A stretch of DNA of 64,000 nt from a virus. Shown in pieces: positions 32,868 through 62,365 of the stretch. The notes beneath the pieces were generated by a model that made no database searches, was not told the origin of the DNA, and worked only from the letters and a program-made list of their open reading frames with translations. Both the position numbers and the translations under genes were made by a program. Position 1 is the first letter of the stretch. Every line of letters begins with the position of its first letter. The stretch lies in the IMG/VR virus record IMGVR_UViG_3300032116_000035, positions 1 through 64,000 of that record. One strand, given 5' to 3'.

Positions 32868-34570
32868 TATTATTTAAAACACTGCGTTGGAAAAATCTGT
32901 TAAGTACCGGTAATTACTTTACCGAAATAGCACTAAACAGTAACGCTAATACATTAATTGTAGGTACGAATGGCTCTGGTAAGTCAACGATGCTTGACGC
33001 CTTGTGTTTTGGTTTGTTTGGTAAACCTTTTCGTGCAATTAACAAACCAAATCTTGTAAACTCAATCAACAATCGGGATGCTGTAGTTGAAATAGAGTTT
33101 TCAATTGGTAGCAAAGAGTTCAAGATTGTTCGTGGTATCAAACCAAACATCTTTGAAATCTACCAAGATAAAGTTTTGCTGAATCAAGATGCGGCTGTAA
33201 GAGATTATCAAGACTACCTAGAGAGGTTTATTCTCAAACTAAACTACAAGTCTTTCACACAGATCGTTATTCTTGGTTCAGCATCGTTTACGCCGTTCAT
33301 GCAGTTGTCTTCTGCCGACCGTAGAGCAATTATTGAAGACTTGTTAGACATTCAGATTTTCTCTACAATGAATGGTCTAATCAAAGAAAGATTGTCAAAC
33401 AATAAAGACCTGACGGTAGCAAAAAAGAGTGATATATCTTTGTTGATGCAGAAGTATCAATTGAAGAAAGAGCATCAAGATAAACTCAATCAAGATAATG
33501 AAGCAAAGGTAAAAGAATATGAGGAAGAGATACTTCTGCACAGAGAAACCATTCGCACCTTACATGGTGACATTGACAGCTTGGAACAAACCAAGCAGAC
33601 CTTATCCGAAGTCTGTGCTAAAATTCCTGAAAATGAAAAGAAGATTACTGCGTTTAAAAAAGTTGAGTCACAAATTGAGAGCAAGATATCCAAAGTGGGA
33701 AATGATAGAAGTTTCTATGAACACAATGCTGATTGCCCAACCTGTAGGCAGGCCATTACCATGGAGTTTAAAGAAGGGCAACTCACAGAACTTGGCACAA
33801 AAGAACACGAACTTGCTAGTGCTTTGACGGAATTACAAACAAAAATTACAGATCAAGAAAATGTAGTTGCTGAACTGCGTGAAAAAGAAAAAGAACTATC
33901 AAATGTACGCATTCAATTGGCGACAACACAGACTGGTGTCAAAGGTTTGAATGATTCAATTATCAAACTAGAAAAACAAATCAAACAAATACAAAAGCCA
34001 AAAGAAGACGTTGATGAGGATGAATTAGATACCATCAAGAAAGAGGTTGAACAAGCACAAGATGAACTGAAGCAGTTGTTGGATGATAAAGCATATTACG
34101 ATGTTGCTTCTTCATTGTTGAAAGATACCGGCATCAAAACAAACATCATCAAGCAATATTTGCCAGTAATAAACAAATTGGTGAACAAGTATCTGACAAG
34201 TATGGATTTCTTTGTGAACTTCAATCTTGATGAGTCATTCAAAGAAACAATTAAGTCTAGGCATCGTGATGAATTTTCTTACCATAATTTTTCAGAAGGT
34301 GAGAAACAGCGTATTGATATGGCATTGATGTTGACATGGAGAGCAGTTGCAAAACTAAAGAACTCCACCAATACCAATCTATTGATACTTGATGAAGTGT
34401 TTGATTCAAGTTTAGATACAAGTGGCACAGAAGACTTGATGAAGATATTACATACACTTGAAGGTGTAAATCTGTTTGTCATCAGCCATAAAGGTGACAT
34501 ACTACAAGATAAGTTTGCAAATACAATTAAATTTGAGAAAGTCAAAAATTTTTCAAGGATGGTGAAATGA
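32864..34570 (+). CDS. gp46: Recombination ATPase subunit gp46-like (Rad50 family)
   Basis: A 568-residue SMC/Rad50-type protein (T4 560). N-terminal Walker A GTNGSGKST, a long coiled coil interrupted by the zinc hook CPTC (Cys291 and Cys294), the ABC signature FSEGEKQRIDMAL, and Walker B LLILDEVFDSSLD. It works with gp47 in end resection. Overlaps of four bases at both ends indicate coupled translation with gp47 and the deformylase. Confidence 0.95.
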   Translation: MILFKTLRWKNLLSTGNYFTEIALNSNANTLIVGTNGSGKSTMLDALCFGLFGKPFRAINKPNLVNSINNRDAVVEIEFSIGSKEFKIVRGIKPNIFEIYQDKVLLNQDAAVRDYQDYLERFILKLNYKSFTQIVILGSASFTPFMQLSSADRRAIIEDLLDIQIFSTMNGLIKERLSNNKDLTVAKKSDISLLMQKYQLKKEHQDKLNQDNEAKVKEYEEEILLHRETIRTLHGDIDSLEQTKQTLSEVCAKIPENEKKITAFKKVESQIESKISKVGNDRSFYEHNADCPTCRQAITMEFKEGQLTELGTKEHELASALTELQTKITDQENVVAELREKEKELSNVRIQLATTQTGVKGLNDSIIKLEKQIKQIQKPKEDVDEDELDTIKKEVEQAQDELKQLLDDKAYYDVASSLLKDTGIKTNIIKQYLPVINKLVNKYLTSMDFFVNFNLDESFKETIKSRHRDEFSYHNFSEGEKQRIDMALMLTWRAVAKLKNSTNTNLLILDEVFDSSLDTSGTEDLMKILHTLEGVNLFVISHKGDILQDKFANTIKFEKVKNFSRMVK

Positions 34571-35145
34571 GTGAGATACTAACAATTGATACTGCCGCTG
34601 GCTTACAACAAATAGAGAAAGTAAATCCTTTGCCTGTACATGGTGAAGATTACTTTATGTTGAGTGTTCCTATACCTGAGTATAAAGGAGACTTTCCTAA
34701 TCCCGCAATTGTTCATTTGGCAAAACGTTTGCGTACTACCATGAAATTGTATTCTGGTTTAGGATTGTCTGCAAACCAATGCGGTGTTGCTGAGAGAATG
34801 TTTGTTATTGGTATGGACGACTTTCAACTAACATGCTTGAATCCTAAACTAAAAATAATGTCTGCCAATAAAGTAAAAGAAAAAGAAGGATGCTTATCTT
34901 ATCCAGGTCTGTTTTTAAATGTAGAAAGACCTGATTGGATTGAAGTTGAATTTCTTAATGAGCATGGTGAAAAACAAGAAATGAGACTTGATGGATTAAC
35001 GGCTCGTTGTTTTATGCATGAAATGGACCACATGAATGGAATTCATTATACGAACTATGTGAAGCCCGTAGCACTGAGAATGGCAAGACAAAGAGCAACT
35101 AAACTTGTGAAAAAAATTATTCGTAATAGCAAAAAAAATGGATGA
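34567..35145 (+). CDS. def: Peptide deformylase
   Basis: A 192-residue enzyme with all three motifs in order: GLGLSANQ (64-71), EGCLS (107-111, metal-binding Cys109), and HEMDH (151-155, two His ligands and catalytic Glu152). It removes the formyl group from new protein N-termini. Deformylases are frequent auxiliary genes in marine T4-like phages, where they are thought to keep up host or phage protein maturation. The N-terminal 25 residues are longer than in minimal phage forms. It overlaps its neighbours by 4 and 8 bases. Confidence 0.93.
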   Translation: MSEILTIDTAAGLQQIEKVNPLPVHGEDYFMLSVPIPEYKGDFPNPAIVHLAKRLRTTMKLYSGLGLSANQCGVAERMFVIGMDDFQLTCLNPKLKIMSANKVKEKEGCLSYPGLFLNVERPDWIEVEFLNEHGEKQEMRLDGLTARCFMHEMDHMNGIHYTNYVKPVALRMARQRATKLVKKIIRNSKKNG

Positions 35146-36466
35146 GAAAACATTTGTAGAGCAACAATGGCAAGAATGGCAGGACAAAAATCCCGCCAGT
35201 TCTTTTTCCGATATTGATGTTGATTACCTGCGTGAAAAAGTTATACGTGAGTTGACTTATGTTTCACAAATGGATGTCAAAGAGTATACTTTGTATCAGA
35301 AATGGTGTGAAGTACAAGACAAATATCCTAGTAGAGAAGTTTCAACATTGTTTGGTGTTGAGAAACAACTAATTGATTTGTCACAAGCGGCATCTATTGA
35401 GGATGTCAAATCAAATATTTGGGTGCCAGAATCCGCTGAAGACTATTTGAATCTTAAACCTGTTCTAGAGTATACCGATGATTCTGGTGAAATTACAAAA
35501 ACTGGTATTGATGGTTCTTCAGTAACAATCACAAAGAAAAGAAACAAGAAACTACCAGAAACTTGGAATACGATTCGTACATTCATCTCTACGATGAAAA
35601 ACAATTCCAATATCGGTCGTAATCTAAACTTTATTGTCAAAGACGATGTTACTGGTAAATATCTTGGTGTGATTTGTATCTCATCAGATTTTCTTGATCT
35701 GACACCACGTGATAACTTTATTGGTTGGTCACGTGAACGTAAGACACAAGGTGCTATGATTAATCATACTGCTATTGGTTCTACGATTGTACCTTTTCAA
35801 CCACTAGGCTTCAACTATGTTGGTGGTAAACTACTAGCATTGTTGTGTCTGTCAGATGAAGTGCAAAATATCTGGAAAAGAGTTTATGGTGATGTGCTTG
35901 TTGGTGTTACCACAACTTCTCTTTATGGTAAAACTAAGGCGGGTGGTTTATCACAGTATGATAATCTAGATCATTGGCAGCCAATGGGTTTCACCTCTGG
36001 TTCTGTTTCATTTGAACCAGAAAAAGATACACGATATGAGATTCGTGAATGGCTGAAAAAAAATCACACACGCAAATACTTTGAATGGTATGAAGCGGTA
36101 AAACCAAGTGGTCAGCCACACAAACGTGACCATAAGAATCGTTCTTTGAACTTTACTTATTCACAACTGAAAGTGCCTAAAGAACTCATTCGTTCTGAAC
36201 ATGCACGTGGCATTTACTTTAGTTCATTGTATACAAACACAAACGATTTTCTTTGTGACCGAATCAAAGAAAGTGAATTAGTCAAGGCCTTTCCTACTGA
36301 CTACGATTCATTAGTTGGTATCTGGAGAGACAAACATGCCAAAGGTCGTATCAAACAGTTGATGAAGAAAGACAATGTATCTTATGAAACACTGTTTTAT
36401 GATGACTTAATTGAACTATCGTGGGAAGAGACCAAGGCTAAGTACCTACCGCAGGTCGGTCGTTAG
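35138..36466 (+). CDS. DUF4338 (DruA-like) protein
   Basis: A 442-residue protein. The middle (NIGRNLNFIVKDDVTGKYLGVICISSD; NHTAIGSTIVPFQPLGFNYVGGKLLALL; GVTTTSLYG; QYDNLDHWQPMGFTSG) looks like DUF4338, the family of DruA from the Druantia anti-phage system. No other Druantia component is visible. The N-terminal 110 residues are helical. Phage members could counter host defence, exclude rival phages, or act on DNA; the biochemical activity of this copy is unknown. The family call is from memory of the motif pattern and should be tested by profile search. It is followed by the promoter-rich island. Confidence 0.55.
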   Translation: MDEKTFVEQQWQEWQDKNPASSFSDIDVDYLREKVIRELTYVSQMDVKEYTLYQKWCEVQDKYPSREVSTLFGVEKQLIDLSQAASIEDVKSNIWVPESAEDYLNLKPVLEYTDDSGEITKTGIDGSSVTITKKRNKKLPETWNTIRTFISTMKNNSNIGRNLNFIVKDDVTGKYLGVICISSDFLDLTPRDNFIGWSRERKTQGAMINHTAIGSTIVPFQPLGFNYVGGKLLALLCLSDEVQNIWKRVYGDVLVGVTTTSLYGKTKAGGLSQYDNLDHWQPMGFTSGSVSFEPEKDTRYEIREWLKKNHTRKYFEWYEAVKPSGQPHKRDHKNRSLNFTYSQLKVPKELIRSEHARGIYFSSLYTNTNDFLCDRIKESELVKAFPTDYDSLVGIWRDKHAKGRIKQLMKKDNVSYETLFYDDLIELSWEETKAKYLPQVGR

Positions 36467-36478
36467 CAAAAAAGCAAC

Positions 36479-36507
36479 TTGACAATCTCCAGCATACCAG
36501 TTATAAT
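36479..36507 (+). promoter_or_regulatory. Perfect sigma70 promoter P1 (TTGACA-17-TATAAT)
   Basis: TTGACA at 36479-36484, a 17-base spacer and TATAAT at 36502-36507, followed by GG. It lies just behind the DUF4338 gene and would give a transcript starting near 36514, ahead of the 30-codon leader ORF. Confidence 0.9.
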
Positions 36508-36536
36508 GGTGTGTACAGTTTGATATGGAGGTATTG

Positions 36537-36629
36537 ATGTCTTTTTTGCAACACTTTTCTGATGTGCTTGACAAACCCCGTCAAACCATATATAATGGTT
36601 ACTCAGTGATTGACGAGGTTATCAAATGA
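36537..36629 (+). CDS. 30-residue leader ORF upstream of the VWA gene
   Basis: An ORF too short for usual gene calling, encoding MSFLQHFSDVLDKPRQTIYN followed by GYSVIDEVIK. It has a strong ribosome site (TGGAGG, 36525-36530) with good spacing, and its stop overlaps the start of the VWA gene (ATGA). Promoter P2 lies wholly inside it, so transcripts from P1 carry the leader while those from P2 carry only its end. It could be a coupling leader that controls translation of the next gene, or a genuine micropeptide. No homologue is recognised. Confidence 0.55.
   Translation: MSFLQHFSDVLDKPRQTIYNGYSVIDEVIK
36568..36596 (+). promoter_or_regulatory. Perfect sigma70 promoter P2 (TTGACA-17-TATAAT)
   Basis: TTGACA at 36568-36573, a 17-base spacer, TATAAT at 36591-36596 followed by GG. 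It gives a start near 36603, about 23 bases before the VWA gene ATG. The element is coding sequence of the leader ORF at the same time. Confidence 0.9.
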
Positions 36630-38914
36630 GTAACATTCAAAATCAAAAGTCCGGTCTGGCCAAACTCATGGCCACCGAGAATCTTATCGTTCAACATGCC
36701 AAAGTTCCAACGGCAATGTTTGATCCTAAAAATCGTGTTCTAACCTGTCCTATTTGGGAACAAATGTCAGGCGACCTTTATGACTTGCTAATGGGTCATG
36801 AAGTTGGTCACGCTATTGATACTCCTGCCGATGGTTGGCATGGTGCTGTACATGAACGTGGTGCAAACTACAAAGGCTTTTTGAATGTAGTTGAAGATGC
36901 ACGTATTGAAAAACGACAAAAGCGCCGTTATCCTGGTCTGCGCCGTTCGTTTGTCAACGGTTTCAATGAACTCATGGACAAAGACTTCTTTGGTCTGGCT
37001 GGTCGTGATGTTAATACAATGTCGTTCATTGACCGTTTGAACATCTATTCAAAATCTGGCTACACCATTCCTGTTGCATTCAATGCAAAAGAACAGGAGT
37101 TTGTTGAACGTGTTCAGACCTGTGAAACATGGGATGATGTTCTCAAAGTTACCAATGAGATTTGGGACTATTCAAAAGAAGAACAGTCTCAGACTAATAT
37201 GCCTCAAGATAATTTTGAGTCCGATGAGGGTGATGAAGATTATGAAACCCAACCTGGTTCAAATGAAGGTGATGCTGAGACTGATGGCGAAGGTGAACAA
37301 AAATCTAAGACTAAAGCCAAAGGTGAAGATGGTGATCAAGAAAATGAATCGGCATCAAACGCTAGCCAAGATGGTGAAGAGGAAGGTGATGATGAGGGTG
37401 AAGACAAAGATGGTGTAAATCGCACCAAAGAATCTCAGAGTGTACGTGAGGATCAAACTCCCGAACCACGGTGTGAGACTGATGAAAACTTCCGTCAGAA
37501 TGAAGGCAAACTCATTGCGAAACATGCACGTGAGTATGTTTATGTTGATATACCTAAGCCGAATCTGACAAAGATTGTCACACCAGCAAAACGTGTACAG
37601 GAAGTTCTGACTGAAGAGTTTTCAAAACAGCGACCTTCTGACTATCAATCAATTGCCAATACTTTGTACAATGATTTTCGTCGTAAGAATGAACGATTCA
37701 TTTCATTGTTGGCAAAAGAATTTGAGATGCGTAAGGCTGCCGATAAGTTTTCTAAAGCGAAAACATCGTCAACTGGTGACATTGATGTAAGCCGTGTTTT
37801 CAAATATCAGATTGATGATAACATTTTCAAAAAAGTTATGCGTGTGCCTAAAGGTAAATCGCACGGCTTGATTTTGTTGCTTGATAAGTCTGGTTCAATG
37901 TCAGAGAATCTTGGTGCATCATATGAACAGATACTTGTGTTGGCTACCTTCTGCCGCAAAGTAAACATTCCATTTGCAGCATATGGTTTCGGTAATGCTG
38001 ATCATGTTCGTGAAACGATTGACTACCGTGAAGAACCTGGTACAGGTAAATCTTATGGTTGTTTCTCTGAAAACAATCGTGAGATGCACTTGTCTTCGGT
38101 GTATCTTCGTGAGTTAATTAACTCAAAGATGAGTAACTCAGAATTTTCTAAGGCAACAAAGAATATTCTGTGTCTCATGAATGCTTGGTCTGGTGGTCGT
38201 TATTCTAGAGGTGCTAATTTTTATCGCCCACAATCCGATTCACTGTCCAATACACCGTTGACTGAGGCGATGATTGCTTGCCAATCAATTATCAAAGAGT
38301 TCCGCACTGTGAACAATCTTGATATTGTAAACTTGTGTGTGGTTCATGATGGTGATGCTGATGATATCAATTCATATCACAAACCGAATGAAGGTGAAAG
38401 CATCAATGGCAACCGAAACTTCTTCAGTACAAATTATCAGAACGTTTTTCTATGTGATAAGAAAAACAAAATTCAACAAGCGGTACCTGAAGGTGATGAT
38501 GGTATTCGTATTGCCATTAGTAATTGGTTGACGAAAACAACCGGTGTAAAAATCATCGGCTTCTATTTGTCGCCCAACTACATGATGAAAAATGCTGTAC
38601 GCCGCCGTTTGTTTAATGATGAAATTAATGAACTGCGTAAATCACCACGTGAGAATTACTATCAATTGAAAGATGCGTATTCAAAGTACATGAAATTGAT
38701 TCGCAAAGATAAGTATCTTGAATCAAAGAATGTTGGCTATGAATCATTCTTTATTCTACCAGGTGGTAGTGATTTGAATATTGAGGATGAAGACTTTGAG
38801 GCACCAACAAAAGTTACCACCTCAACTTTGACCAAGGCGTTCAGTAAGTATACCAAAAATCGTCAAGTCAACCGTGTTCTGGTATCACGTTTCATCGGTA
38901 TGATAGCAGTTTGA
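36626..38914 (+). CDS. Metallopeptidase-like / VWA-domain protein (CobT-like)
   Basis: A 762-residue protein in three parts. The N-terminal domain has a zinc-peptidase motif HEVGH (58-62) followed by EDARIEKRQKRRYPG, as in the peptidase-like part of CobT and related VWA proteins. Residues about 195-290 are a very acidic low-complexity linker. The C-terminal half is a von Willebrand A domain with a MIDAS motif DKSGS (Asp420, Ser422, Ser424). Its neighbour is the matching AAA+ ATPase. MoxR/VWA pairs act as chaperone-like remodelling machines; CobT proper is a cobaltochelatase subunit, but no CobN is present. Two perfect sigma70 promoters precede it. Confidence 0.85.
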   Translation: MSNIQNQKSGLAKLMATENLIVQHAKVPTAMFDPKNRVLTCPIWEQMSGDLYDLLMGHEVGHAIDTPADGWHGAVHERGANYKGFLNVVEDARIEKRQKRRYPGLRRSFVNGFNELMDKDFFGLAGRDVNTMSFIDRLNIYSKSGYTIPVAFNAKEQEFVERVQTCETWDDVLKVTNEIWDYSKEEQSQTNMPQDNFESDEGDEDYETQPGSNEGDAETDGEGEQKSKTKAKGEDGDQENESASNASQDGEEEGDDEGEDKDGVNRTKESQSVREDQTPEPRCETDENFRQNEGKLIAKHAREYVYVDIPKPNLTKIVTPAKRVQEVLTEEFSKQRPSDYQSIANTLYNDFRRKNERFISLLAKEFEMRKAADKFSKAKTSSTGDIDVSRVFKYQIDDNIFKKVMRVPKGKSHGLILLLDKSGSMSENLGASYEQILVLATFCRKVNIPFAAYGFGNADHVRETIDYREEPGTGKSYGCFSENNREMHLSSVYLRELINSKMSNSEFSKATKNILCLMNAWSGGRYSRGANFYRPQSDSLSNTPLTEAMIACQSIIKEFRTVNNLDIVNLCVVHDGDADDINSYHKPNEGESINGNRNFFSTNYQNVFLCDKKNKIQQAVPEGDDGIRIAISNWLTKTTGVKIIGFYLSPNYMMKNAVRRRLFNDEINELRKSPRENYYQLKDAYSKYMKLIRKDKYLESKNVGYESFFILPGGSDLNIEDEDFEAPTKVTTSTLTKAFSKYTKNRQVNRVLVSRFIGMIAV

Positions 38915-38918
38915 TAAC

Positions 38919-38946
38919 ATACCACCGCTTGACAAAGTGGTGGTAT
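38919..38946 (+). promoter_or_regulatory. Long hairpin carrying the -35 box of promoter P3
   Basis: A 12-base stem ATACCACCGCTT / AAGTGGTGGTAT (one G-U pair) with a GACA loop. The P3 -35 hexamer TTGACA spans the top of the stem and the loop. No T run follows, so it is not a standard terminator; it may be a DNA operator or a transcript-end stabiliser. Confidence 0.65.
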
Positions 38947-38957
38947 CCTTATATAAT
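38929..38957 (+). promoter_or_regulatory. Perfect sigma70 promoter P3 (TTGACA-17-TATAAT)
   Basis: TTGACA at 38929-38934, a 17-base spacer, TATAAT at 38952-38957 followed by GG. It lies in the 75-base gap between the VWA and AAA+ genes and allows independent early expression of the ATPase. Confidence 0.9.
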
Positions 38958-38989
38958 GGTAGTTCCTAAAGTGATGGAGAATTTATATT

Positions 38990-40171
38990 ATGACAAGTCG
39001 TGCTAATAAACGTCAGGCTTTTATTGATGCTCTTAATGCAACTGGTAAGGCTGAGGTATCGTTGTCAGAAGTGAAAGACATTGCCTCCGATGCTGGTCTG
39101 GCGATTCCCTACTGGTTCACTAACGATGAGAGTAATAAGGTCAAACGTGGTGTATATCGTGTTCCTGGCGCCTCTGGTGCTACACCAGCCATCAGTCTGG
39201 CTGCACAGGTAATACCTATGGCAAAACCCGAACCTGTGCAAGGTAATCGTATTGCAAATGTGACAACTGATCTTGAACTTGAGAATCTGGTTCCTTTTCA
39301 ATATGACAACTATGTTCCTTTTGGCAACTTTGATGATGTGTTGTCAATTGTGAAATCAAAACAATTCTTCCCTGTGTTCATCACTGGTCAATCTGGTAAC
39401 GGTAAGACCATGAGTATTGAACAGGCTTGCGCCAAAGCAAAACGCAAATTCGTTTGCGTATCAATGACACCTGATTCTGATGAGAGTGATTTGCTTGGTA
39501 ACTATGTTCTGATCAACGGTCAAATGGAATGGCGTGACGGTCCTGTGACTGTGGCAGCCCGCCAAGGTGCTGTACTCTGTATTGATGAGATTGACTACGG
39601 CGCTCAGAATCTTTCCTGCTTACAACGGGTACTTGAGGGTAAGCCATTCTTGCTAAAGAAAAAGAATGAACTGGTTACACCTGCGCCAGGTTTTACCGTG
39701 TTTGCTACCGCTAACACAAAAGGTAAAGGCTCTGAAGATGGTCGCTATATGTTTACCAATGTATTGAATGAGGCGTTTCTTGAGCGTTTCCCAAATACAA
39801 TGGAGCAAGAGTTTCCACCTGCACGTATTGAAGAAAAAATTATCAACAAAGAACTTGATTCAGTCGGTCGTTCTGATGATGTATTTGCCAAAAATCTAGT
39901 TACTTGGGCTAATACGATTCGTAATACCTTTGCTGATGGTGGTTGTGATGAGGTTATTTCAACCCGCCGTTTGGTACACATTGTGAAAACATTCGGTATT
40001 TACGGTGATAAGAAAAAAGCGATTGAGTATTGCTTGAATCGTTTTGATGCCGATACTAAGATTACCTTCCTTGATCTGTATACTAAGATTGATGCTGGTA
40101 TTGATCCTAGTGAATTGGTATCAACTGAACAGATTGAACCGGTAACAACTTCTGAAGAACAGCCGTTTTAA
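38990..40171 (+). CDS. cobS: MoxR/CobS-like AAA+ ATPase
   Basis: A 393-residue protein. After an N-terminal region of about 120 residues containing a winged-helix-like start (TGKAEVSLSEVKDIASDAGL), the AAA+ core has Walker A GQSGNGKT (about 133-140), Walker B LCIDEID (about 193-199), sensor 1 FATANTKGKG and an arginine-finger region FLERFPN. CobS-like proteins are frequent in T4-like cyanophages, with the VWA protein as partner. With the upstream gene it probably makes a ring that remodels a protein or complex. The cobaltochelatase role is unlikely without CobN. Target unknown. Confidence 0.85.
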   Translation: MTSRANKRQAFIDALNATGKAEVSLSEVKDIASDAGLAIPYWFTNDESNKVKRGVYRVPGASGATPAISLAAQVIPMAKPEPVQGNRIANVTTDLELENLVPFQYDNYVPFGNFDDVLSIVKSKQFFPVFITGQSGNGKTMSIEQACAKAKRKFVCVSMTPDSDESDLLGNYVLINGQMEWRDGPVTVAARQGAVLCIDEIDYGAQNLSCLQRVLEGKPFLLKKKNELVTPAPGFTVFATANTKGKGSEDGRYMFTNVLNEAFLERFPNTMEQEFPPARIEEKIINKELDSVGRSDDVFAKNLVTWANTIRNTFADGGCDEVISTRRLVHIVKTFGIYGDKKKAIEYCLNRFDADTKITFLDLYTKIDAGIDPSELVSTEQIEPVTTSEEQPF

Positions 40172-40174
40172 TTC

Positions 40175-40203
40175 TTGACAGAGGCTTAGTCCTCTGTTAG
40201 GAT
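40175..40203 (+). promoter_or_regulatory. Sigma70 promoter P4 (TTGACA-17-TAGGAT) before nuclease gene
   Basis: Perfect -35 at 40175-40180, a 17-base spacer and a weaker -10 TAGGAT at 40198-40203. A 7-base inverted repeat ACAGAGG / CCTCTGT (40178-40184 with 40191-40197) fills most of the spacer, a good place for a repressor. Transcripts would start near 40210 and meet a terminator at once. Confidence 0.65.
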
Positions 40204-40210
40204 TATATTT

Positions 40211-40252
40211 GTGTCACTGAACAAACAATGTTTAAGTAAGTGACACTTTTTT
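40211..40252 (+). terminator. Terminator/attenuator in the nuclease leader
   Basis: A perfect 8-base stem GTGTCACT / AGTGACAC followed by six T residues. The 20-base loop can pair internally (AACA with TGTT). It starts about one base after the expected P4 start site and ends 40 bases before the nuclease ATG, so it could also close the ATPase transcript. Confidence 0.8.
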
Positions 40253-40256
40253 AAAC

Positions 40257-40273
40257 TCTGACTACTGGTCAGA
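40257..40273 (+). promoter_or_regulatory. Palindrome in nuclease leader
   Basis: TCTGAC / GTCAGA, a perfect 6-base inverted repeat with a five-base centre, between the attenuator and the ribosome site (TAGGAG). It could be an operator or small RNA hairpin. Nothing shows which. Confidence 0.4.
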
Positions 40274-40292
40274 AACTAAACTAGGAGAAATT

Positions 40293-41669
40293 ATGAAATA
40301 CAATACACTGCATTGCTATAATGCATCCTTCAAACTTATTGATCCGCAACTTTTTGACTTGCGTAAAAAAACAGGTCTAGACCTTTCCTTTCAATCATCT
40401 GCACGATGGTCTGATGATACAAAAACCGCATTTGTAACATCACTTGTTACAGGCATGGCACCATCAAAAATTGTTCTTTGTAATGTCGAGAAGTGCCTTG
40501 AAAATGTTATCGAGGGTTCAGATGACTGGAAATACTTCAAATATTGGCAAGACCAAGGATATGAATGGATTTCAATTGACGGTAACAACCGCACCATTAC
40601 TATCAATGAATTTTTAGAAGGCAAAATTTCCATTGCACATGGAGATTATACACTGCCTAATGGTACAACGGTACACGTTGATAAAACCTGCGACAATTAT
40701 AATACATTCAAGAAAATTTTCCGCAAATATGTTGATGAGTATGTGCAAGTGGCTTATGTTGCATATACGAATGCTACACGTTATGATATGACACAATTGT
40801 TTTTGAATATCAATGACGGTGTATCTCTTAACTCACAAGAAAAACTAAATGCTATTCTAGTTCCTTTTTCGGGTTGGGTTCGTGATCGTGTTAAAGAACA
40901 CTATCCAGTTTTGAAAAAAGTTTTTCCAACAGAGAAACAATTTGTTCGCCGTTCTATTGATGACTTTATTGTTTCAATGGCAATTTACTCAACGTTTGGC
41001 ACCCAAAAAACAATTCAATTGGGTGAAAAGAAAAAAGCCTATGAAGATGACTCTGCGGTATCACGTGGTACAAATCGTGCAGAGAAACGCATTGAAGAAG
41101 TTCTGCGCCTTGTGAAAAAATATGCTGATGATGGTTTTAAAAACTCATCAACATTATTCAATCTTTATATGTTGACTACACATATTCAAGACAACAACAT
41201 GAAAATTTTGAATGAAGGTGATTTTTTCAAGTGGTTTATGGCTACAGAGAATCGTTTGATTGCAAATGATAAACCAATCATGACAACTTCAGGTGGTGAA
41301 TCACGTACTTATAGTTCATGTAATGATACCATGTCTGCACCAGAATTGACTGCACGTAAAGATACTTTGTTGCGTGAGTTCAATAAAGTTGATTGCCTTG
41401 GTAAACTTGTGACTGCACGTGATAAAGAACGTTTTTATACACAAGCACAGAAGTATGAATTATGGTCAAAACAAGGTGGTGTTTGCCCTAAAACTGGTAA
41501 AGAAATTCCAGAACATGAGATCAACAATCACAAAAAGTGGCAAGCCGATCACATTCTACCACACGATCTAGGTGGTGAAACTACTATTGAAAACGGTCAA
41601 CTTGTTTGCGCTGAATACAACAATAAAAAAGGTAATCGTTGGTCTGATCAAGCGGTAACATTTGCTTAA
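40293..41669 (+). CDS. DUF262-HNH nuclease (GmrSD-like architecture)
   Basis: A 458-residue fusion. The N-terminal part is DUF262/ParB-like with the DGNNR variant (Asp96-Arg100, ISIDGNNRTITINEFLEG) of the DGQQR motif, followed by FLNINDGVSLNSQEKLNA, typical of DUF262. The C-terminal part is an HNH nuclease: ADHILPHDLGGETTIENGQL then EYNNKKGNR, with His420 in the catalytic strand. GmrSD-type enzymes of this kind use nucleotides in DUF262 and cut modified DNA. In a phage it could destroy rival phage or host DNA. Leader with promoter, attenuator and palindrome suggests tight control. No immunity partner recognised. Confidence 0.82.
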   Translation: MKYNTLHCYNASFKLIDPQLFDLRKKTGLDLSFQSSARWSDDTKTAFVTSLVTGMAPSKIVLCNVEKCLENVIEGSDDWKYFKYWQDQGYEWISIDGNNRTITINEFLEGKISIAHGDYTLPNGTTVHVDKTCDNYNTFKKIFRKYVDEYVQVAYVAYTNATRYDMTQLFLNINDGVSLNSQEKLNAILVPFSGWVRDRVKEHYPVLKKVFPTEKQFVRRSIDDFIVSMAIYSTFGTQKTIQLGEKKKAYEDDSAVSRGTNRAEKRIEEVLRLVKKYADDGFKNSSTLFNLYMLTTHIQDNNMKILNEGDFFKWFMATENRLIANDKPIMTTSGGESRTYSSCNDTMSAPELTARKDTLLREFNKVDCLGKLVTARDKERFYTQAQKYELWSKQGGVCPKTGKEIPEHEINNHKKWQADHILPHDLGGETTIENGQLVCAEYNNKKGNRWSDQAVTFA

Positions 41670-41686
41670 TTTTTCACTATTGCCTA

Positions 41687-41714
41687 AGAGAGTGTTGACA
41701 CACTCTCTTTTTTT
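41687..41714 (+). terminator. Intrinsic terminator after the nuclease gene, overlapping promoter P5
   Basis: A perfect 9-base stem AGAGAGTGT / ACACTCTCT with a TGAC loop and a run of seven T residues. The loop and flanking stem bases form the -35 box TTGACA of P5. Confidence 0.92.
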
Positions 41715-41723
41715 GTATATACT
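41695..41723 (+). promoter_or_regulatory. Sigma70 promoter P5 (TTGACA-17-TATACT) embedded in a terminator
   Basis: TTGACA at 41695-41700 sits on the loop of the upstream terminator, the spacer is the right stem arm and T run, and TATACT is at 41718-41723. Transcription would begin near 41730 and read the pseudoknot-like leader and the HTH gene. Confidence 0.85.
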
Positions 41724-41732
41724 ATTAACTAT

Positions 41733-41773
41733 GTAGAGAAAAGTCGCCTCTACTATTCATTTTTCGTGCGACT
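41733..41773 (+). promoter_or_regulatory. Predicted H-type pseudoknot in the HTH gene leader
   Basis: Stem 1 pairs GTAGAG (41733-41738) with CTCTAC (41748-41753). Stem 2 pairs AGTCGC (41742-41747), in the loop of stem 1, with GCGACT (41768-41773). Loop 1 is three A residues, there is no gap between the stems, and loop 3 is 14 bases. AATTTTT and the ribosome site (GGAG, 41783-41786) follow. No known riboswitch consensus is recognised. Confidence 0.5.
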
Positions 41774-41794
41774 AATTTTTATGGAGTAAATTGA

Positions 41795-42058
41795 ATGTCT
41801 GCTAAAGAGAAAATTCTAAAGTTCCTTTCTAAGGACGGTCCTTACAATACCTTGACTTCTGCACAAGCACGTGCCCGTTTCGGTATCGTAAACGTTGGTG
41901 CCCGCATTGAAGAACTTCGTGCTGAAGGCTACTGCATCTATACCAACAAGAAAACTCTTGCTGATGGTCGTCGTATCACTTACTACAAACTCGGCAAACC
42001 AACCAAAGAAATGGTTGCTATGGCACATGCTGTTCTTGGAGCAGAAGCGTTTGCCTAA
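41795..42058 (+). CDS. Small helix-turn-helix protein
   Basis: An 87-residue protein. SAKEKILKFLSKDGPYNTLTSAQARARFGIVNVGARIEELRAEGYCIYTNKK is the HTH_39-type winged-helix pattern (AQARARFGI-N-x-x-ARI-x-ELR). A DNA-binding regulator role is inferred. It lies right after the nuclease gene, has its own promoter, a structured leader and its own terminator, so it is a monocistronic early gene. It may control the nuclease or itself through the palindromes nearby. Confidence 0.8.
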   Translation: MSAKEKILKFLSKDGPYNTLTSAQARARFGIVNVGARIEELRAEGYCIYTNKKTLADGRRITYYKLGKPTKEMVAMAHAVLGAEAFA

Positions 42059-42128: not shown

Positions 42129-42944
42129 ATGCAATTACAAGTTAACCTTGAAGAACTGAGAAAGAATAAACTGTTCGTGGCTACACCAATGTATGGTGGT
42201 ATGAATCACGGTTTGTATATGAAGTCTTGCCTTGACTTACAAACTATCATGATTCGTTATGGCATTGAAACAAAGTTTTCTTTTCTCTTCAACGAATCAC
42301 TCATCACAAGAGCAAGAAACTATTTGGTAGATGAGTTTCTACGCACAGATTTTACACACATGATGTTCATTGATTCGGACATTCACTTTGATCCGAATGA
42401 TATCGTAGCACTGATGGCATTAGATAAAGATGTTATTGGTGGTCCTTATCCCAAGAAGTCAATCAACTGGGGCAACATTGCGGAAACAGCCCGCAAACAT
42501 CCAGACCTGAATCCAAAAGAACTTGAGAATCTTGTTGGTGAATACGTATTCAACGTAGTAAAAGGCACACAACAATTCCAAGTATCCGAGCCATTAGAAG
42601 TAATGGAAATTGGTACAGGTCATATGATGATCAAGCGTCAGGTGTTTGATAAGATGAAAGAAGAATATCCTTTCATTCGTTATAAGCCCGATCATATTGG
42701 TCAAGCACATTTCGATGGCTCACGTTACATTCATGCATACTTTGATACCGTGATTGACACAACTGATTCATGTGTTGGTGGTGGCTCTGAGCGTTATCTG
42801 TCAGAAGATTATATGTTCTGTCAAATGTGGCGCAAGATGGGTGGAAACATTTGGTTGTGTCCTTGGATGAGAACTCAGCATATCGGTACATACGCATTTA
42901 CTGGCAACATGCCCGCTGTTGCTCAGTATACCGGTAGACTTTGA
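42129..42944 (+). CDS. GT-A-fold glycosyltransferase
   Basis: A 271-residue protein. The start LFVATPMYGGMNHGLYMKSCLDL and the metal-binding DSDIHFDPNDIVAL are typical of GT-A transferases (GT2-like, of the kind with a D-x-D motif). LSEDYMFCQMWRKMGGNIWLCP parallels the C-terminal ED acceptor-site region. The donor and acceptor are unknown; modified phage DNA, a virion protein, or host surface glycan are all possible. The ATG lacks a clear ribosome site. Its stop overlaps the next start (TTGA). Confidence 0.82.
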   Translation: MQLQVNLEELRKNKLFVATPMYGGMNHGLYMKSCLDLQTIMIRYGIETKFSFLFNESLITRARNYLVDEFLRTDFTHMMFIDSDIHFDPNDIVALMALDKDVIGGPYPKKSINWGNIAETARKHPDLNPKELENLVGEYVFNVVKGTQQFQVSEPLEVMEIGTGHMMIKRQVFDKMKEEYPFIRYKPDHIGQAHFDGSRYIHAYFDTVIDTTDSCVGGGSERYLSEDYMFCQMWRKMGGNIWLCPWMRTQHIGTYAFTGNMPAVAQYTGRL

Positions 42945-44150: not shown

Positions 44151-45080
44151 ATGGAACATCTTCTATGGACAGAAAAGTATCGGCCACGAACAGTGGAAGA
44201 ATGTATTCTACCAGAACGTTTGAAAGCAGTGTTTCAACAATACGTAAACCAGAAAGAGATGCCAAATCTCCTTCTGGCTGGTGGGGCGGGTGTGGGCAAG
44301 ACGACAATCGCCAAAGCCATGTGCAACGAAATCGGTTGCGACTACATGGTAATCAATGGTTCTGATGAGAACGGCGTCGATACAATTCGTGTCAAAATCA
44401 AAAACTATGCATCATCGGTTTCACTTTCTGGTGGCCGTAAGGTTGTCATTCTAGATGAAGCAGATTATCTAACACCAAACGCACAAGCAATTCTGCGTAA
44501 TGCGATTGAAGAGTTTGCTGCAAACTGTTCTTTCATTTTCACCTGCAACTATAAAAACAAAATCATTGATCCACTACACAGTCGTTGTGCGGTCATTGAA
44601 TTTGGTTTGAAGAATGGTGAAAAAGCGCAAATGGCTTCTGCGTTTTTCAAACGCATCACACACATACTTGATACAGAGAAAGTTGAATTTGACGAAAAGG
44701 TAATTGCCGAAGTAGTCAAGAAACACTTTCCAGATTTTCGTCGTGTTATCAATGAACTTCAACGCTATTCCAAACTCGGCAAGATTGATGTAGGCATCCT
44801 CTCTCAGATTGGTGATATTTCTCTAACACAGATTGTCAAACATTTGAAAGAAAAAGACTTTACGTCCGTCCGTAAATGGGCAGCAACGTCGGAAATTGAT
44901 AACACGACATTCTTTCGCAAACTCTATGATGCTTTGTATGACATTGCAAAGCCTCAGAGTATACCACAAGCAGTCTTAATTCTTGCTGACTACCAATACA
45001 AGCAAGCATTTGTTGCTGACCATGAAATCAATCTTGTTGCTTGCCTGACAGAAATCATGGCTAACGTGGAATTCAAATGA
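44151..45080 (+). CDS. gp44: Clamp loader large subunit gp44
   Basis: A 309-residue AAA+ ATPase (T4 319). Features: LWTEKYRPRTVEECILP at the N-terminus, Walker A GGAGVGKTT, DEAD-like Walker B VVILDEADYL, SRC motif (HSRCAVIEF) with the arginine finger, and sensor 1 FTCNY. Four copies plus one gp62 open the clamp. In T4 gp62 follows immediately; here the restriction-modification pair lies between. Overlaps that pair by four bases (ATGA). Confidence 0.96.
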   Translation: MEHLLWTEKYRPRTVEECILPERLKAVFQQYVNQKEMPNLLLAGGAGVGKTTIAKAMCNEIGCDYMVINGSDENGVDTIRVKIKNYASSVSLSGGRKVVILDEADYLTPNAQAILRNAIEEFAANCSFIFTCNYKNKIIDPLHSRCAVIEFGLKNGEKAQMASAFFKRITHILDTEKVEFDEKVIAEVVKKHFPDFRRVINELQRYSKLGKIDVGILSQIGDISLTQIVKHLKEKDFTSVRKWAATSEIDNTTFFRKLYDALYDIAKPQSIPQAVLILADYQYKQAFVADHEINLVACLTEIMANVEFK

Positions 45081-45646
45081 TACCTTTTGATACCTTATTT
45101 AAAGATGGCAAACTCAACAAGTTTATGGAAGAAAAGTCTAAAAACTTGTGGGAAGGCACACTCTTTGAAAAGTATCCATTGATATCCAACAAAAACAAAG
45201 GCGCCTTGGGAGAGAAAATAGTAGGTAAATACATGACATTACTAAACTGTTCTGTAAGAGAAAGAAAAAATTCAGGACAGGATTTTTTAATTGATGGTTA
45301 TAAAACCGAAGTTAAAATTAGTTTAGCACATGAAACAGTACACAATCAATTTGCGCTTAATCACATTTCAATAAAAAAAGATTGGGAAAGATTGATCTTT
45401 CTTGGAGTCAACTATGATCTTTCAAAGTCAAAAATGGTATTCTTCAAGAAACAAGACTTTATTGACCATATGGACAACACACCTTCTCCTTTGTTTAAAC
45501 ATCAACAAGGTGGTGAAAAAATAAAGAATGACGATTACATTTTGATGGGTAATTTTGATAATTTTTTTGATTTGGATTTTGTCTACGACATTTCTGAATG
45601 GAAAAATAAGGAAGAACTAAGAGGTCTAGAATTTTGGTTGAAATAA
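45077..45646 (+). CDS. Putative PD-(D/E)XK restriction endonuclease
   Basis: A 189-residue protein paired with a DNA methyltransferase. The fold signature is visible: GALGEKIVGKYM with Glu46 in the first helix, then GQDFLIDGYKTEVKIS with Asp69, Glu78 and Lys80 (D-x8-E-x-K). The following HISIKKDWERLIFLGVNYD fits the usual next strands. Type II-like endonuclease is inferred from the pairing and motif. It overlaps gp44 by four bases and the methyltransferase by 13. The DNA here is clearly more AT-rich than the flanking clamp-loader genes, suggesting recent transfer. Confidence 0.75.
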   Translation: MIPFDTLFKDGKLNKFMEEKSKNLWEGTLFEKYPLISNKNKGALGEKIVGKYMTLLNCSVRERKNSGQDFLIDGYKTEVKISLAHETVHNQFALNHISIKKDWERLIFLGVNYDLSKSKMVFFKKQDFIDHMDNTPSPLFKHQQGGEKIKNDDYILMGNFDNFFDLDFVYDISEWKNKEELRGLEFWLK

Positions 45647-46635
45647 AAGACTTTTTGAATATCAGATATAGTACCAGAAATCTTTCCGATGAACAATTTG
45701 AGGGTATAGTCAATGACTTAGCCACTCAATTAGAAGGTATAGATTACAAAACACTTTATACTGAAGAACAACTAAGGACAGATTGGAACAATTTGATTCG
45801 TTGGTTTTCAAATGAAAACACCATCAATTCAACTTCAAGAATTGGAATGAAATTGTGTGAACACTTTTTCCCAAACTTCTATAAAATAGAAGACAATCGT
45901 GGTAAAAGTTTTGCCAACAGTTGGACTGCTGAAAATCTGCAAAAAATTTTACGTTGGAATAGAAAGAGTCATAGCACACCATATCTTTCAGAACTAAAAC
46001 GTGGAGTTTATTTTTGTTGTGGTCTAACCAAAAGTACAATGTATAGACCACAAATGGCAAAACTTTTGTGTTTGAAATATAAACCAAAAATAGTTTTAGA
46101 CCCATGTGCTGGTTGGGGTGGAAGAATGTTAGGTGTGGTTTCAAGTGGTGCAAGATACATTGCTTTTGAACCAAATACAGAAACTTATAAAAATTTACAA
46201 AGACTGATTAAGTTTTTAAATATTGAAGATAAAGTTACAATCATATGTGATGATGCTTTAAATATGGCTAACTATAATTTACCTAAAGTGGATATGGTTT
46301 TGACCAGCCCACCCTATTTTGATGTTGAAGTTTATACTAAAGAGTCAACTCAATCAATAAACAATGTAACTAACTATGAATCCTGGATTGCAGAGTTTCT
46401 CAAACCTTTGATTGAAAAATCACTAAGCCATTTGAAAGAAGATGGTGTGAGTTGTTGGAACGTCGGTAAAGTCGGAAATAAAAACATGATAGATGATGTT
46501 AAGAATGTTCACTTTGAAAAACATTATTACGTTTTTGATAAATTCTCACTGGTCAGCAGCAAAAGGCAGGCATTGCAGAATGAACTTAAAAATGAGAAAA
46601 GTTTAGATGACACGGTGATTTTTAAATATGAGTAA
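45634..46635 (+). CDS. DNA methyltransferase (SPPY type)
   Basis: A 333-residue class I DNA methyltransferase. SAM-binding motif I is DPCAGWGGRMLG (starting Asp156), then IAFEPN (motif II), and the catalytic motif IV TSPPY (224-228), the form seen in N4-cytosine and N6-adenine enzymes. The N-terminal 130 residues are probably for target recognition. The TTG at 45634 is preceded by AAGAGG and overlaps the endonuclease by 13 bases. It would protect phage DNA from the partner nuclease. It overlaps gp62 by 8 bases, so the pair is fully built into the clamp-loader transcript. Confidence 0.87.
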   Translation: MVEIKDFLNIRYSTRNLSDEQFEGIVNDLATQLEGIDYKTLYTEEQLRTDWNNLIRWFSNENTINSTSRIGMKLCEHFFPNFYKIEDNRGKSFANSWTAENLQKILRWNRKSHSTPYLSELKRGVYFCCGLTKSTMYRPQMAKLLCLKYKPKIVLDPCAGWGGRMLGVVSSGARYIAFEPNTETYKNLQRLIKFLNIEDKVTIICDDALNMANYNLPKVDMVLTSPPYFDVEVYTKESTQSINNVTNYESWIAEFLKPLIEKSLSHLKEDGVSCWNVGKVGNKNMIDDVKNVHFEKHYYVFDKFSLVSSKRQALQNELKNEKSLDDTVIFKYE

Positions 46636-47014
46636 TCCATTTGACTATGCAACTGCCATCCTACAAACTAAGAAGCAAATGATTGTAGATGATATAACCG
46701 AGAAAGACTATGCTCCTTTTCTGGTCAACCGAGCCTTGTCTCAACACAAGGATTGTCTGGCCTTTGCGAATGAGATGAATAGTAGGCACTACCTTGAAAA
46801 GAAACTACAATTTGACTATTTGCTAAATACCGTCAGGTCTATGAAAAGACCGTTTGCGAAGTGGGCTAAGGCTGAAAAAAACGATGATTTGGAATGTGTC
46901 AAACTGGTCTATGGCCTGTCCGATTCCAAAGCACGTGAGGCTTTGAGACTTCTCAGCAAAGAACAAATCCAAAAACTAAAAGAAGAAACCCTGACGGGTG
47001 GGTTAAGGAAATGA
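46628..47014 (+). CDS. gp62: Clamp loader small subunit gp62-like
   Basis: A 128-residue protein (T4 187; shorter in aquatic relatives). FLVNRALSQHKDCLAFANEMNSRHYLEKKLQFDYLLN is the conserved core, and KRPFAKWAKAEKNDDLECVKLVYG follows. It forms the fifth subunit of the gp44/gp62 loader. It now starts inside the methyltransferase end, so its translation may depend on it. Confidence 0.9.
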   Translation: MSNPFDYATAILQTKKQMIVDDITEKDYAPFLVNRALSQHKDCLAFANEMNSRHYLEKKLQFDYLLNTVRSMKRPFAKWAKAEKNDDLECVKLVYGLSDSKAREALRLLSKEQIQKLKEETLTGGLRK

Positions 47015-48765: not shown

Positions 48766-48929
48766 TGAAATCAAATTCAAACTTTAAAATGGGCAAAGAA
48801 CTGAAGGTTCTACTTTCAGGTCTTTCTGGTAAAAACAAGACTGACTACAAGCGTGAGATGATTCAAGCAATCATTGCTCCACGAATTGAATTCAAGAAGA
48901 AGAAAAAAGAAGAGGTGCAAGGTGACTGA
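48765..48929 (+). CDS. 54-residue basic small protein
   Basis: Starts by overlapping the oxygenase stop (TAATG) and ends TGA inside the start of the next gene. The sequence MKSNSNFKMGKELKVLLSGL then SGKNKTDYKREMIQAIIAP ends in a lysine run (FKKKKKEEVQGD). It is tightly packed on both sides, which supports reality. No family recognised. Confidence 0.6.
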   Translation: MKSNSNFKMGKELKVLLSGLSGKNKTDYKREMIQAIIAPRIEFKKKKKEEVQGD

Positions 48930-49737
48930 TCTGTTGATGGTAAGTCACTTTCATAAAGACTTTCCTTTTAATCATGAATCCTCTTGGCTGAAAGCAGCAT
49001 ACGCTGGTTCTCATGCGCCATACAAGTGGCAACCACCAGGTCCCGGCAATTGGATCAACACATCACAACATAAAAGTGTATATGGCTATCGTCACTATTA
49101 CAGCATGTGTAGTGAAGATGAGTTTCTTCGTGCATTAGCACAACAAGCATCCGAGTATTACTTGTGGCATAATGGTCGTGCAGACTTCATTGGCTGTACA
49201 ACATATCGTCGTTATTTGGACTTCAAAGGTGACTTGGGTAAAAATATTCTGAAATCATCGTTGCCGGCCACACAAGAAAGTGCTAATTACATGTCATCCG
49301 ATGAACAGAAGGCGGCCGCACTCAAACTACTTGAGACACACGATGCGATTACGAATCACATCACACCATTGCCATACTCAGTTCGTAATCAGTATCTACA
49401 GTCACAACCAGCAGAGTATTTGAATCTGTTTTTAGAGGGTATTGAAAAGTTATTACCTGATTACAGAGACAAGATGAGTTGGTGGGATGACAACGGCGCC
49501 AGTTTTGAAACATGTTATGTCATGCGTAAGCAACTGTTCAGAAAATATGCTTCTGAGTTATTTGAACTTTTAGAATATGTGTGGCAGAACACAAGCAGAG
49601 TATATCCAACAACTACAACAACATCTGAGCCATTGCCTTGGAGATATCCAGGTTTTTTAGGTGAAAGATTTTTACCATTCTTCCTACACGCCAACAACGT
49701 AAACGTGGCTAGAACGTCACTTGTCATTTTGGAATAG
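48922..49737 (+). CDS. DUF4422-like glycosyltransferase
   Basis: A 271-residue protein. The block YYSMCSEDEFLRALAQQASEYYLWHNG then ADFIGCTTYRRYLDFKGD resembles the (D)YIGLxHYRRYF motif of DUF4422 glycosyltransferases of capsule and LPS loci; YPTTTTTSEPLPWRYPGFLGERFLPFFL is also typical. The GTG at 48922 is chosen: AGAGG lies upstream and it overlaps the small gene by 8 bases, the same pattern as uvsY-uvsW. Acceptor unknown. Confidence 0.7.
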   Translation: MTDLLMVSHFHKDFPFNHESSWLKAAYAGSHAPYKWQPPGPGNWINTSQHKSVYGYRHYYSMCSEDEFLRALAQQASEYYLWHNGRADFIGCTTYRRYLDFKGDLGKNILKSSLPATQESANYMSSDEQKAAALKLLETHDAITNHITPLPYSVRNQYLQSQPAEYLNLFLEGIEKLLPDYRDKMSWWDDNGASFETCYVMRKQLFRKYASELFELLEYVWQNTSRVYPTTTTTSEPLPWRYPGFLGERFLPFFLHANNVNVARTSLVILE

Positions 49738-60855: not shown

Positions 60856-61698
60856 ATGAAAGATGTGATCGTGGGATGCTCAACAAATTATGACTGGGCA
60901 AAATTAAAATATTGGATTAATTCCATCAATGAATCAGGCTTTGAGGGTGATAAAGTTCTGATTCTCATGAACTGCGATAAAGAAACTGCACAGAAGGTAA
61001 CTGACGCAGGCTTCTCAATCATAGCGTTCAATCAAGACAAAGACGGCAATCTAACTTATCAGTCTCAACTGATGGTGCATGTTGAGCGTTTCATTCACAT
61101 TTACAAACTGCTCAAAGATAATGACTATCGTTATGTAATTACCACAGATGTACGAGATGTTATCTTTCAAAAGAACCCTGTTACATGGTTAGAAGAAAAT
61201 CTATCCAAACAAGAAGATTTGGTATTTTCTTCCGAAAGCATGAAATATAAAGATGAGCCATGGGGTCGTGAGAATCTAACACAGTGTTATGGTCAAGGCA
61301 TCTACGAAGATTTTAAGAACAACACGATCTTTAATGTCGGTGTTCTTGCTGGTCGTGGTTATGCAATGAGGGATTTGACTTTGCAGTTGTTTCTAAACTG
61401 CATCAACAGACCAATACCAATCGTTGATCAAGCAGTATTCAATGTAATGATTTCAAGACACCCATATATTGATTCGTCAATGTACACTCAGTCAGAATAT
61501 GGTTGGGCATGTCAACTTGGCACAACTGCCGATCCAAGTAAGATTGATCAATTCAGACCACATCTTTTAGAACCATCACCGAAATTAGAAGGTGACAAGG
61601 TTGTAACTTCAACAGGAATAGAGTATACTATTGTACATCAGTATGATCGTGTGCCAGAATGGAAGAAAGTGATTGAGGCAAAATATGACGACAAATAG
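60856..61698 (+). CDS. Glycosyltransferase with D-x-x-D motif
   Basis: A 280-residue protein with a Rossmann-type start (DVIVGCSTNYDWAKLKYWINSI) and RYVITTDVRDVIFQKNP holding the metal-binding acidic residues, followed by NVGVLAGRG and a VDQAVFN motif, all typical of GT-A glycosyltransferases acting on nucleotide sugars. Good ribosome site (CTGGAG). It heads the right-edge glycan cassette. It overlaps the methyltransferase by 14 bases. Confidence 0.78.
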   Translation: MKDVIVGCSTNYDWAKLKYWINSINESGFEGDKVLILMNCDKETAQKVTDAGFSIIAFNQDKDGNLTYQSQLMVHVERFIHIYKLLKDNDYRYVITTDVRDVIFQKNPVTWLEENLSKQEDLVFSSESMKYKDEPWGRENLTQCYGQGIYEDFKNNTIFNVGVLAGRGYAMRDLTLQLFLNCINRPIPIVDQAVFNVMISRHPYIDSSMYTQSEYGWACQLGTTADPSKIDQFRPHLLEPSPKLEGDKVVTSTGIEYTIVHQYDRVPEWKKVIEAKYDDK

Positions 61699-62365
61699 AA
61701 TTAAAGAATTATTTTGGGACTTAGAAAAGCCATCTACAAAATGGTCAGGTTACTTTGATGTTTATGAAAGACACCTAAAGAAGTTTGTAGGTAAAGCACC
61801 ACGCATCTTAGAAATCGGTGTGCTTGGTGGTGGTTCAATTGAAATGTGGCTAAAGTATTTTGGTCCTGATACTTCAGTTGTGGCAGTTGATATCAATGAA
61901 GAGTGTTTGAAATATGAATACAACGGTGATGTTAAAGTTGTGATGGGTGACCAAGGTGACGCTGCCTTCTGGTCAGAATTCTTGAAAACACAAAACAATT
62001 TTGATATTGTGATTGATGACGGCTCTCATGTAATGAATCATCAAATCACTACATTGAACAGTGTATTTACACACATCAAAGAGGGTGGTGTTTATATTTG
62101 TGAAGACACTCACACAAGTTATTGGCCACAGCCATGGGGTGGTGTATTCCGTGGTGCTGGCACATTTACTGAACACTGTAAGCGTGTGACAGATATTGTG
62201 AATCAACAACACTTTCAAGGCTCACCAATTTCTGATGAAGCACTTGCGGTGTATAACAATCTTTATTCTGTATCATTCTATAACAGCATGGTCGTGATGG
62301 AAAAAGAACAACTGAAGACATTCGGCATTACAGACAACAAAGCAAATGTGGGGCGTGACCTATGA
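61685..62365 (+). CDS. SAM-dependent methyltransferase (sugar O-methyltransferase-like)
   Basis: A 226-residue class I methyltransferase: motif I LEIGVLGGGSIEMW, acidic VVAVDIN, FDIVIDDGSHVMNHQ and GGVYICEDTHTSYW. The DDGSH motif is typical of the Methyltransf_24/macrocin-O-methyltransferase-like enzymes for sugars. Start at ATG 61685 (GAGG upstream) preferred to TTG 61673. It is flanked by glycosyltransferases, so methylation of a glycan is inferred. Confidence 0.82.
   Translation: MTTNRIKELFWDLEKPSTKWSGYFDVYERHLKKFVGKAPRILEIGVLGGGSIEMWLKYFGPDTSVVAVDINEECLKYEYNGDVKVVMGDQGDAAFWSEFLKTQNNFDIVIDDGSHVMNHQITTLNSVFTHIKEGGVYICEDTHTSYWPQPWGGVFRGAGTFTEHCKRVTDIVNQQHFQGSPISDEALAVYNNLYSVSFYNSMVVMEKEQLKTFGITDNKANVGRDL

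Follow-up and report, generated by a model that had tools for sequence, protein, structure and literature searches.

Gene order between the deformylase and clamp genes

The genes that lie between the deformylase and clamp genes of a T4-like aquatic phage, in its replication region, raise the question of whether they work together as one system of anti-defence or inter-phage competition, as a sequence-only reading had guessed, or serve separate functions side by side. We analyzed a window of bases 1 to 64000 of a 133,235-base virus record and compared it with loci drawn from IMG/VR. The gene order was gp47, gp46, deformylase, DruA-like, VWA, MoxR, DUF262-HNH, HTH, phrog_1574 (at 42129), DUF3310, clamp, and gp44, and the five genes previously called between deformylase and clamp proved to be real open frames with correct coordinates.

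In the IMG/VR loci, VWA and MoxR, usually followed by HTH, kept a constant order, while the genes found on the two sides of the pair varied. The locus is made up of a constant cobT/cobS-like pair, a small HTH gene, and two exchange slots that flank the pair: slot A, between the deformylase and VWA (cobT) genes, and slot B, between the MoxR (cobS) and HTH genes. Slot A was bordered on the left by the peptide deformylase gene (34567..35145, + strand; Pfam PF01327, 2.8e-37), which was constant in relatives, and slot B on the right by a gene for a small winged-helix HTH_39 protein of 87 aa (41795..42058, + strand; Pfam PF14090, 2.3e-9), which was syntenic in most relatives.

The pair between the slots encodes a CobT-like VWA protein of 762 aa (36626..38914, + strand; full-length match to phrog_459, 1.2e-185) and a MoxR/CobS-like AAA+ ATPase of 393 aa (38990..40171, + strand; phrog_249, 5e-99; AAA_5, 3e-20). 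The VWA protein has the architecture of a phage 'peptidase' family, i.e., N-terminal HExxH and ED-R motifs, an acidic linker, and a C-terminal VWA domain with MIDAS (DxSxS ... D), and residues H58, E59, H62, E90, D91, R93, D420, S422, S424, D575, and G576 were invariant across 15 relatives. In MoxR, the Walker A and B motifs, R268, R328, and R329 were invariant (numbered by the first sequence of alignment A4). As neighboring phrog_459 and phrog_249 genes with MIDAS/HExxH and Walker motifs, the two belong to the phage CobT/CobS-like pair, for which we found matches in 463 (VWA, cobT) and 536 (MoxR, cobS) phage records. This pair is near-core in T4-like cyanophages and pelagiphages; cobST belongs to the cyanophage core genome, with cobT usually misannotated as a peptidase (PMC8651126), and cobS and cobT are listed in pelagimyophages and cyanomyophages alike (PMC7029224). 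The families, their adjacency, and their place between gp46/deformylase and clamp are the same in those phages and here, and nothing essential differs, although here an extra nuclease gene is inserted after CobS. The idea of four non-core genes in one accessory island had to be given up: VWA and MoxR are near-core, and most relatives keep the genes in the order VWA-MoxR-HTH. We regard the MoxR/VWA pair as a separate, ancient phage function.

Strong host-type promoters had also been ascribed to most of these genes, and this was borne out except for the DruA gene. Sigma-70-type promoters on the + strand preceded VWA (two consensus sites with 12/12 positions, at 36479..36507 and 36568..36596, the latter conserved upstream of VWA in relatives), MoxR (38929..38957, 12/12), and HTH (41695..41723, 11/12), and a site with 10/12 positions lay before the nuclease gene at 40175. 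The perfect TTGACA-17-TATAAT arrangement occurred at three sites in the 64 kb, all before VWA (two) or MoxR (one), with 0 expected by chance. Among relatives, a promoter with at least 11/12 positions was found before VWA in 83/116, MoxR in 102/146, and HTH in 78/107, versus 31/740 random stretches. The nuclease gene had such a promoter in 5/22 relatives; the DruA gene had none, here or in any of 62 relatives (0/62). The late T4 promoter TATAAATA showed no enrichment.

DruA-like genes and DNA-modification cassettes alternate in slot A

Slot A of the window holds a gene for a DruA-like protein of 442 aa (35138..36466, + strand), which shares 8 nt with the deformylase gene. Its membership in the DruA family (DUF4338/PF14236) was clear from Pfam (71.9 bits versus a cut-off of 27, 6.5e-20; 72.7 bits in the genome search) and from PADLOC (DruA, 2.3e-18). 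Its nearest named relatives were in the Pelagibacter phages Mosig (59%) and HTVC008M (55%), where DruA, peptidase, and CobS follow in the same order; in Mosig, deformylase lies ahead of DruA and a MazG gene separates DruA from the peptidase, and in HTVC008M the gene ahead of DruA is listed as hypothetical. DruA-like proteins are also reported from Synechococcus phages (PMC12774648).

Of the 94 rows in a MoxR tree, 59 had the DruA-like gene in slot A, and 30 of the remaining 35 had TAGT (PF20691, 8e-45), a C5 DNA methylase (PF00145, 2.5e-52), or an N6/N4 methylase (PF01555, 1e-6). A DruA-less slot A commonly combined TAGT, a TET-associated glycosyltransferase, with a methyltransferase, or the C5 DNA methylase with both an Asn-synthase/QueC-like protein and a methyltransferase, or else contained the N6/N4 DNA methylase. 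Close relatives carried, for instance, TAGT and a methyltransferase (L098:1590-3590), an N6/N4 methylase and a 266-aa protein (L103:6757-9128), or a C5 methylase and a QueC/Asn-synthase-like protein (L108:7167-9857). Some DruA-less loci in a more distant branch had no modification genes in slot A but instead 2OG-Fe oxygenases or ClpP. In relatedness-aware pairs, DruA and the modification cassette changed in opposite directions in 6.6/8 supported pairs and in the same direction in 0 (sign test, p 0.016). Such mutual exclusion follows in part from the nature of a slot, which usually accommodates a single cassette; the informative part of the result is that 30/35 alternatives were DNA-modification genes.

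A proposed GNAT fold for the DruA-like protein

In earlier work, DUF4338 was classed as a GNAT domain (PMC10853773). In an AlphaFold2 model of the DruA-like protein (pLDDT 77), the order of helices and strands fitted a GNAT fold, and almost all of the top 50 Foldseek matches in the PDB were GNAT proteins or acyltransferases, the best with an E value of 0.01 and none at or below 0.001. These matches are weak, and a GNAT fold is likely rather than proven. No solved-structure relatives of DruA were found by sequence. The best structural matches of the model were giant-virus proteins in BFVD (A0A3G4ZXG3 from Faunusvirus, E 1.7e-14; A0A5K0UAJ3 from Yasminevirus, E 2.6e-11). Identity of the DruA-like protein among relatives was ~70-76%, where that of VWA was ~45-50%, and such high conservation is as expected of an enzyme.

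The DruA of Druantia type I (PF14236/DUF4338) is homologous to the phage protein over nearly the entire Pfam domain, and an invariant G-G-K-L, T-x-S, and R are common to the phage DruA-like and plasmid Druantia DruA proteins. However, overall identity to Druantia DruA was only ~20%, and the phage gene stands alone in a replication region. No Druantia type I system was found around it: the DruE marker MZB/DUF1998 was absent from the 133 kb record (possibly incomplete), and there were no Druantia neighbors. Mom of phage Mu, known for a GNAT-like adenine modification, is, like the DruA-like protein, thought to be GNAT-like, and the annotation 'methylcarbamoylase mom' is given to one cyanophage relative; yet there was no profile-profile match (HHalign against 11 Mom proteins, probability <1%, with shallow profiles of Neff 1.5 and 3.0), and we rejected homology to Mom.

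The slot B nuclease was seen only with DruA-like genes in this phage branch

Slot B of the window holds a gene for a protein of 458 aa (40293..41669, + strand) that joins a DUF262-like (ParB/Srx-type) region to a Cas9-like HNH nuclease domain. The HNH domain scored above its cut-off (28.8 versus 21.4 bits, 1.4e-6) and matched Cas9 HNH (1.6e-11; PDB Cas9 HNH, 2e-11). The GmrSD_N/DUF262 domain, with 21.3 bits (3.3e-4), was under the cut-off of 33.2, and the IDGNNR and ND..LN.QE motifs were kept in relatives of the nuclease. N-terminal DGNNR-type DUF262 motifs and a C-terminal HNH in a single chain are also found in GmrSD, SspE, and BrxU, which read DNA modification. The window nuclease differs from these in falling under the Pfam GmrSD_N cut-off and in that its close members were found, in the searches done, only in viruses. 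A bacterial source was considered and rejected: the sole genome-contig match, a Prochlorococcus single-cell contig, has the same size (83,794) as a viral contig in the set (compare L284) and is probably viral.

Slot B was usually empty, the empty site being a short gap of mostly ~130 nt, and the nuclease was missing in most relatives. At two loci (L041:9269-10396 and L042), the gene in this place encoded a protein of 376 aa (phrog_15918) that has a GQHR-like motif but neither HNH nor a Pfam match. Locus L102, with an N6/N4 methylase in slot A, had a different slot B nuclease with a clear GmrSD_N domain (5e-14, 53.3 bits). We did not retain the proposal that this alternative nuclease (B_461) always goes with an N6/N4 cassette, as it was found at just four loci, with slot A readable in one contig (L102).

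The DruA-like gene was present in 16/16 nuclease-bearing rows of the 94-row tree versus 43/78 others (Fisher 3.5e-4, ignoring relatedness). With loci found only via the DruA query removed, it was present in 12/12 nuclease loci versus 13/48 (Fisher 3.7e-6, ignoring relatedness). The relatedness-aware sign test for HNH and DruA had 2.9 to 0 informative pairs, too few, with p 0.25. No nuclease member of at least 41% identity was seen with TAGT, C5, or N6/N4 genes in slot A, though such loci are common among close relatives. In L222, the DruA and HNH genes were direct neighbors with no VWA/MoxR between them, and in L252, L255, and L260, which have a cyanophage-like setting, they lay within ~1-3 kb. 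Ahead of the L222 pair (L222:3793-7311) lay a gene for a possible adenine methylase of 177 aa, with an NPPW motif and no Pfam hit.

Nuclease relatives with 44-47% identity adjoined a MoxR gene, without VWA and without DruA, in L225 and L227. DruA was found in only 8/36 records with HNH relatives, picked mostly among distant ones (24-33% identity), and was absent from a 138 kb record with an HNH relative. A universal HNH-DruA linkage is ruled out, distant nuclease relatives being mostly without DruA; in this phage branch, the nuclease was seen only with the DruA-like gene.

A possible self-marking position with an optional nuclease

The explanation that we tentatively prefer, and to which we give somewhat less than an even chance, is that slot A is a position for marking self DNA and slot B takes an optional, modification-sensing nuclease that spares DruA-marked DNA. 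Close relatives put glycosylation or methylation genes in DruA's place, and the DruA-like protein would be a GNAT-type transferase adding a group to phage DNA, which supposes both GNAT chemistry and DNA as the acceptor. By analogy with GmrSD, SspE, and BrxU, the DUF262-HNH protein would sense DNA modification and leave DruA-marked DNA intact. It would cut otherwise-marked DNA, e.g., that of glycosylating or methylating close relatives present in the same cell; alternatively, it would cut DNA without the mark, e.g., that of the host. What is known of DUF262-HNH enzymes speaks for rival marks as the target. DruA and HNH as a working pair are plausible. The proposal of anti-defence or inter-phage competition survives in this narrowed form, for DruA and DUF262-HNH, given that the nuclease occurs only with DruA in the branch and that DruA's position is taken by modification cassettes; for the AAA+/VWA pair as part of such a system, we found no support here.

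The phage has an N6/N4 methylase elsewhere (45634-46635; MTase_II, 3e-10; PF01555, 1e-7), so DruA would not be its only DNA-modifying enzyme, and a simple model with DruA as the only self-mark is weakened. This 333-aa methylase and a 189-aa type II restriction-enzyme-like protein (PADLOC, 8e-5) form a two-gene insert between gp44 and gp62 (45077-46635), which is possibly a restriction-modification pair carried by the phage; in other relatives with the region visible, no such methylase was seen between gp44 and gp62. Assignment of 45077-45646 to gp62 is wrong, gp62 being 46628-47014. The window also encodes a methyltransferase-like protein (phrog_21658, 61673-62365) and a DUF4422 protein (48874-49737).

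A serious alternative, though itself doubtful, is that the DUF262-HNH gene is independent and optional, perhaps mobile like homing endonucleases, and that its match with DruA reflects shared lineages and ecology; the DruA-like protein may still modify DNA in that case, but it would not act jointly with the nuclease. On the tree, the nuclease showed 16 presence/absence changes for 16 bearers, typical of a mobile gene, and the short empty site, the distant family members without DruA, and the sign test for HNH and DruA are consistent with this. The lack of TAGT, C5, or N6/N4 cassettes beside its closer members, where such loci are common, argues against independence, as does the DUF262 domain, which homing enzymes, to our knowledge, do not usually contain.

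Other explanations and implications

The MoxR/VWA pair could act as a cobaltochelatase (CobST) that raises cobalamin supply, with the slots unrelated to it. We think this unlikely. The label of phrog_249, 'porphyrin biosynthesis', agrees with such a role, and viral CobST using host CobN has been proposed (PMC8651126). However, the NCBIfam CobS equivalog score was 68 bits versus a cut-off of 559, so the pair did not pass as a cobaltochelatase, and no CobN subunit was found in the 133 kb phage record that the search covered. Moreover, both large- and small-subunit ribonucleotide reductase genes are in the record, which points to a class I, B12-independent enzyme. A cobalamin role of the pair is weakly supported.

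It is distinctly unlikely that the phage uses its DruA-like protein as a decoy for, or an inhibitor of, a putative host Druantia type I, with the single DruA copy poisoning the complex of the host. Over the Pfam domain the protein is truly homologous to Druantia DruA, and the record has no other sign of a Druantia gene, but its very high conservation in different phages and the presence of DNA-modifying enzymes in its place in others suggest catalysis on DNA, and Druantia in the hosts is a supposition. The first guess, a single new conflict system made up of all four genes, is very improbable and largely refuted by distribution. In its favor, the genes are neighbors on the same strand, and conflict systems with MoxR-VWA pairs are known. 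Against it, the families were distributed independently among relatives, VWA-MoxR-HTH occurs with or without DruA and HNH (VWA-MoxR lacking both in most phages), the slots change while the pair stays, L222 has DruA and HNH side by side, and the promoters are separate.

A broader reading, in our judgment rather unlikely, is that DruA proteins are a novel class of GNAT-type enzymes that mark DNA bases, that T4-like aquatic phages carry them as one allele of an exchangeable self-mark position, together with a nuclease destroying DNA with the marks of rival alleles, and that the same activity would explain DruA in Druantia type I. DruA is, as far as could be found, a defence protein without an assigned activity, and its exchange for glycosyl- or methyltransferase cassettes at one position in many aquatic phages makes DNA modification by DruA cheaply testable. 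The occurrence of the nuclease only with DruA in this branch makes it possible, as a second test, to ask whether closely related phages compete by way of DNA modification; if the broader reading is true, such phages would fight via interchangeable DNA chemistry.
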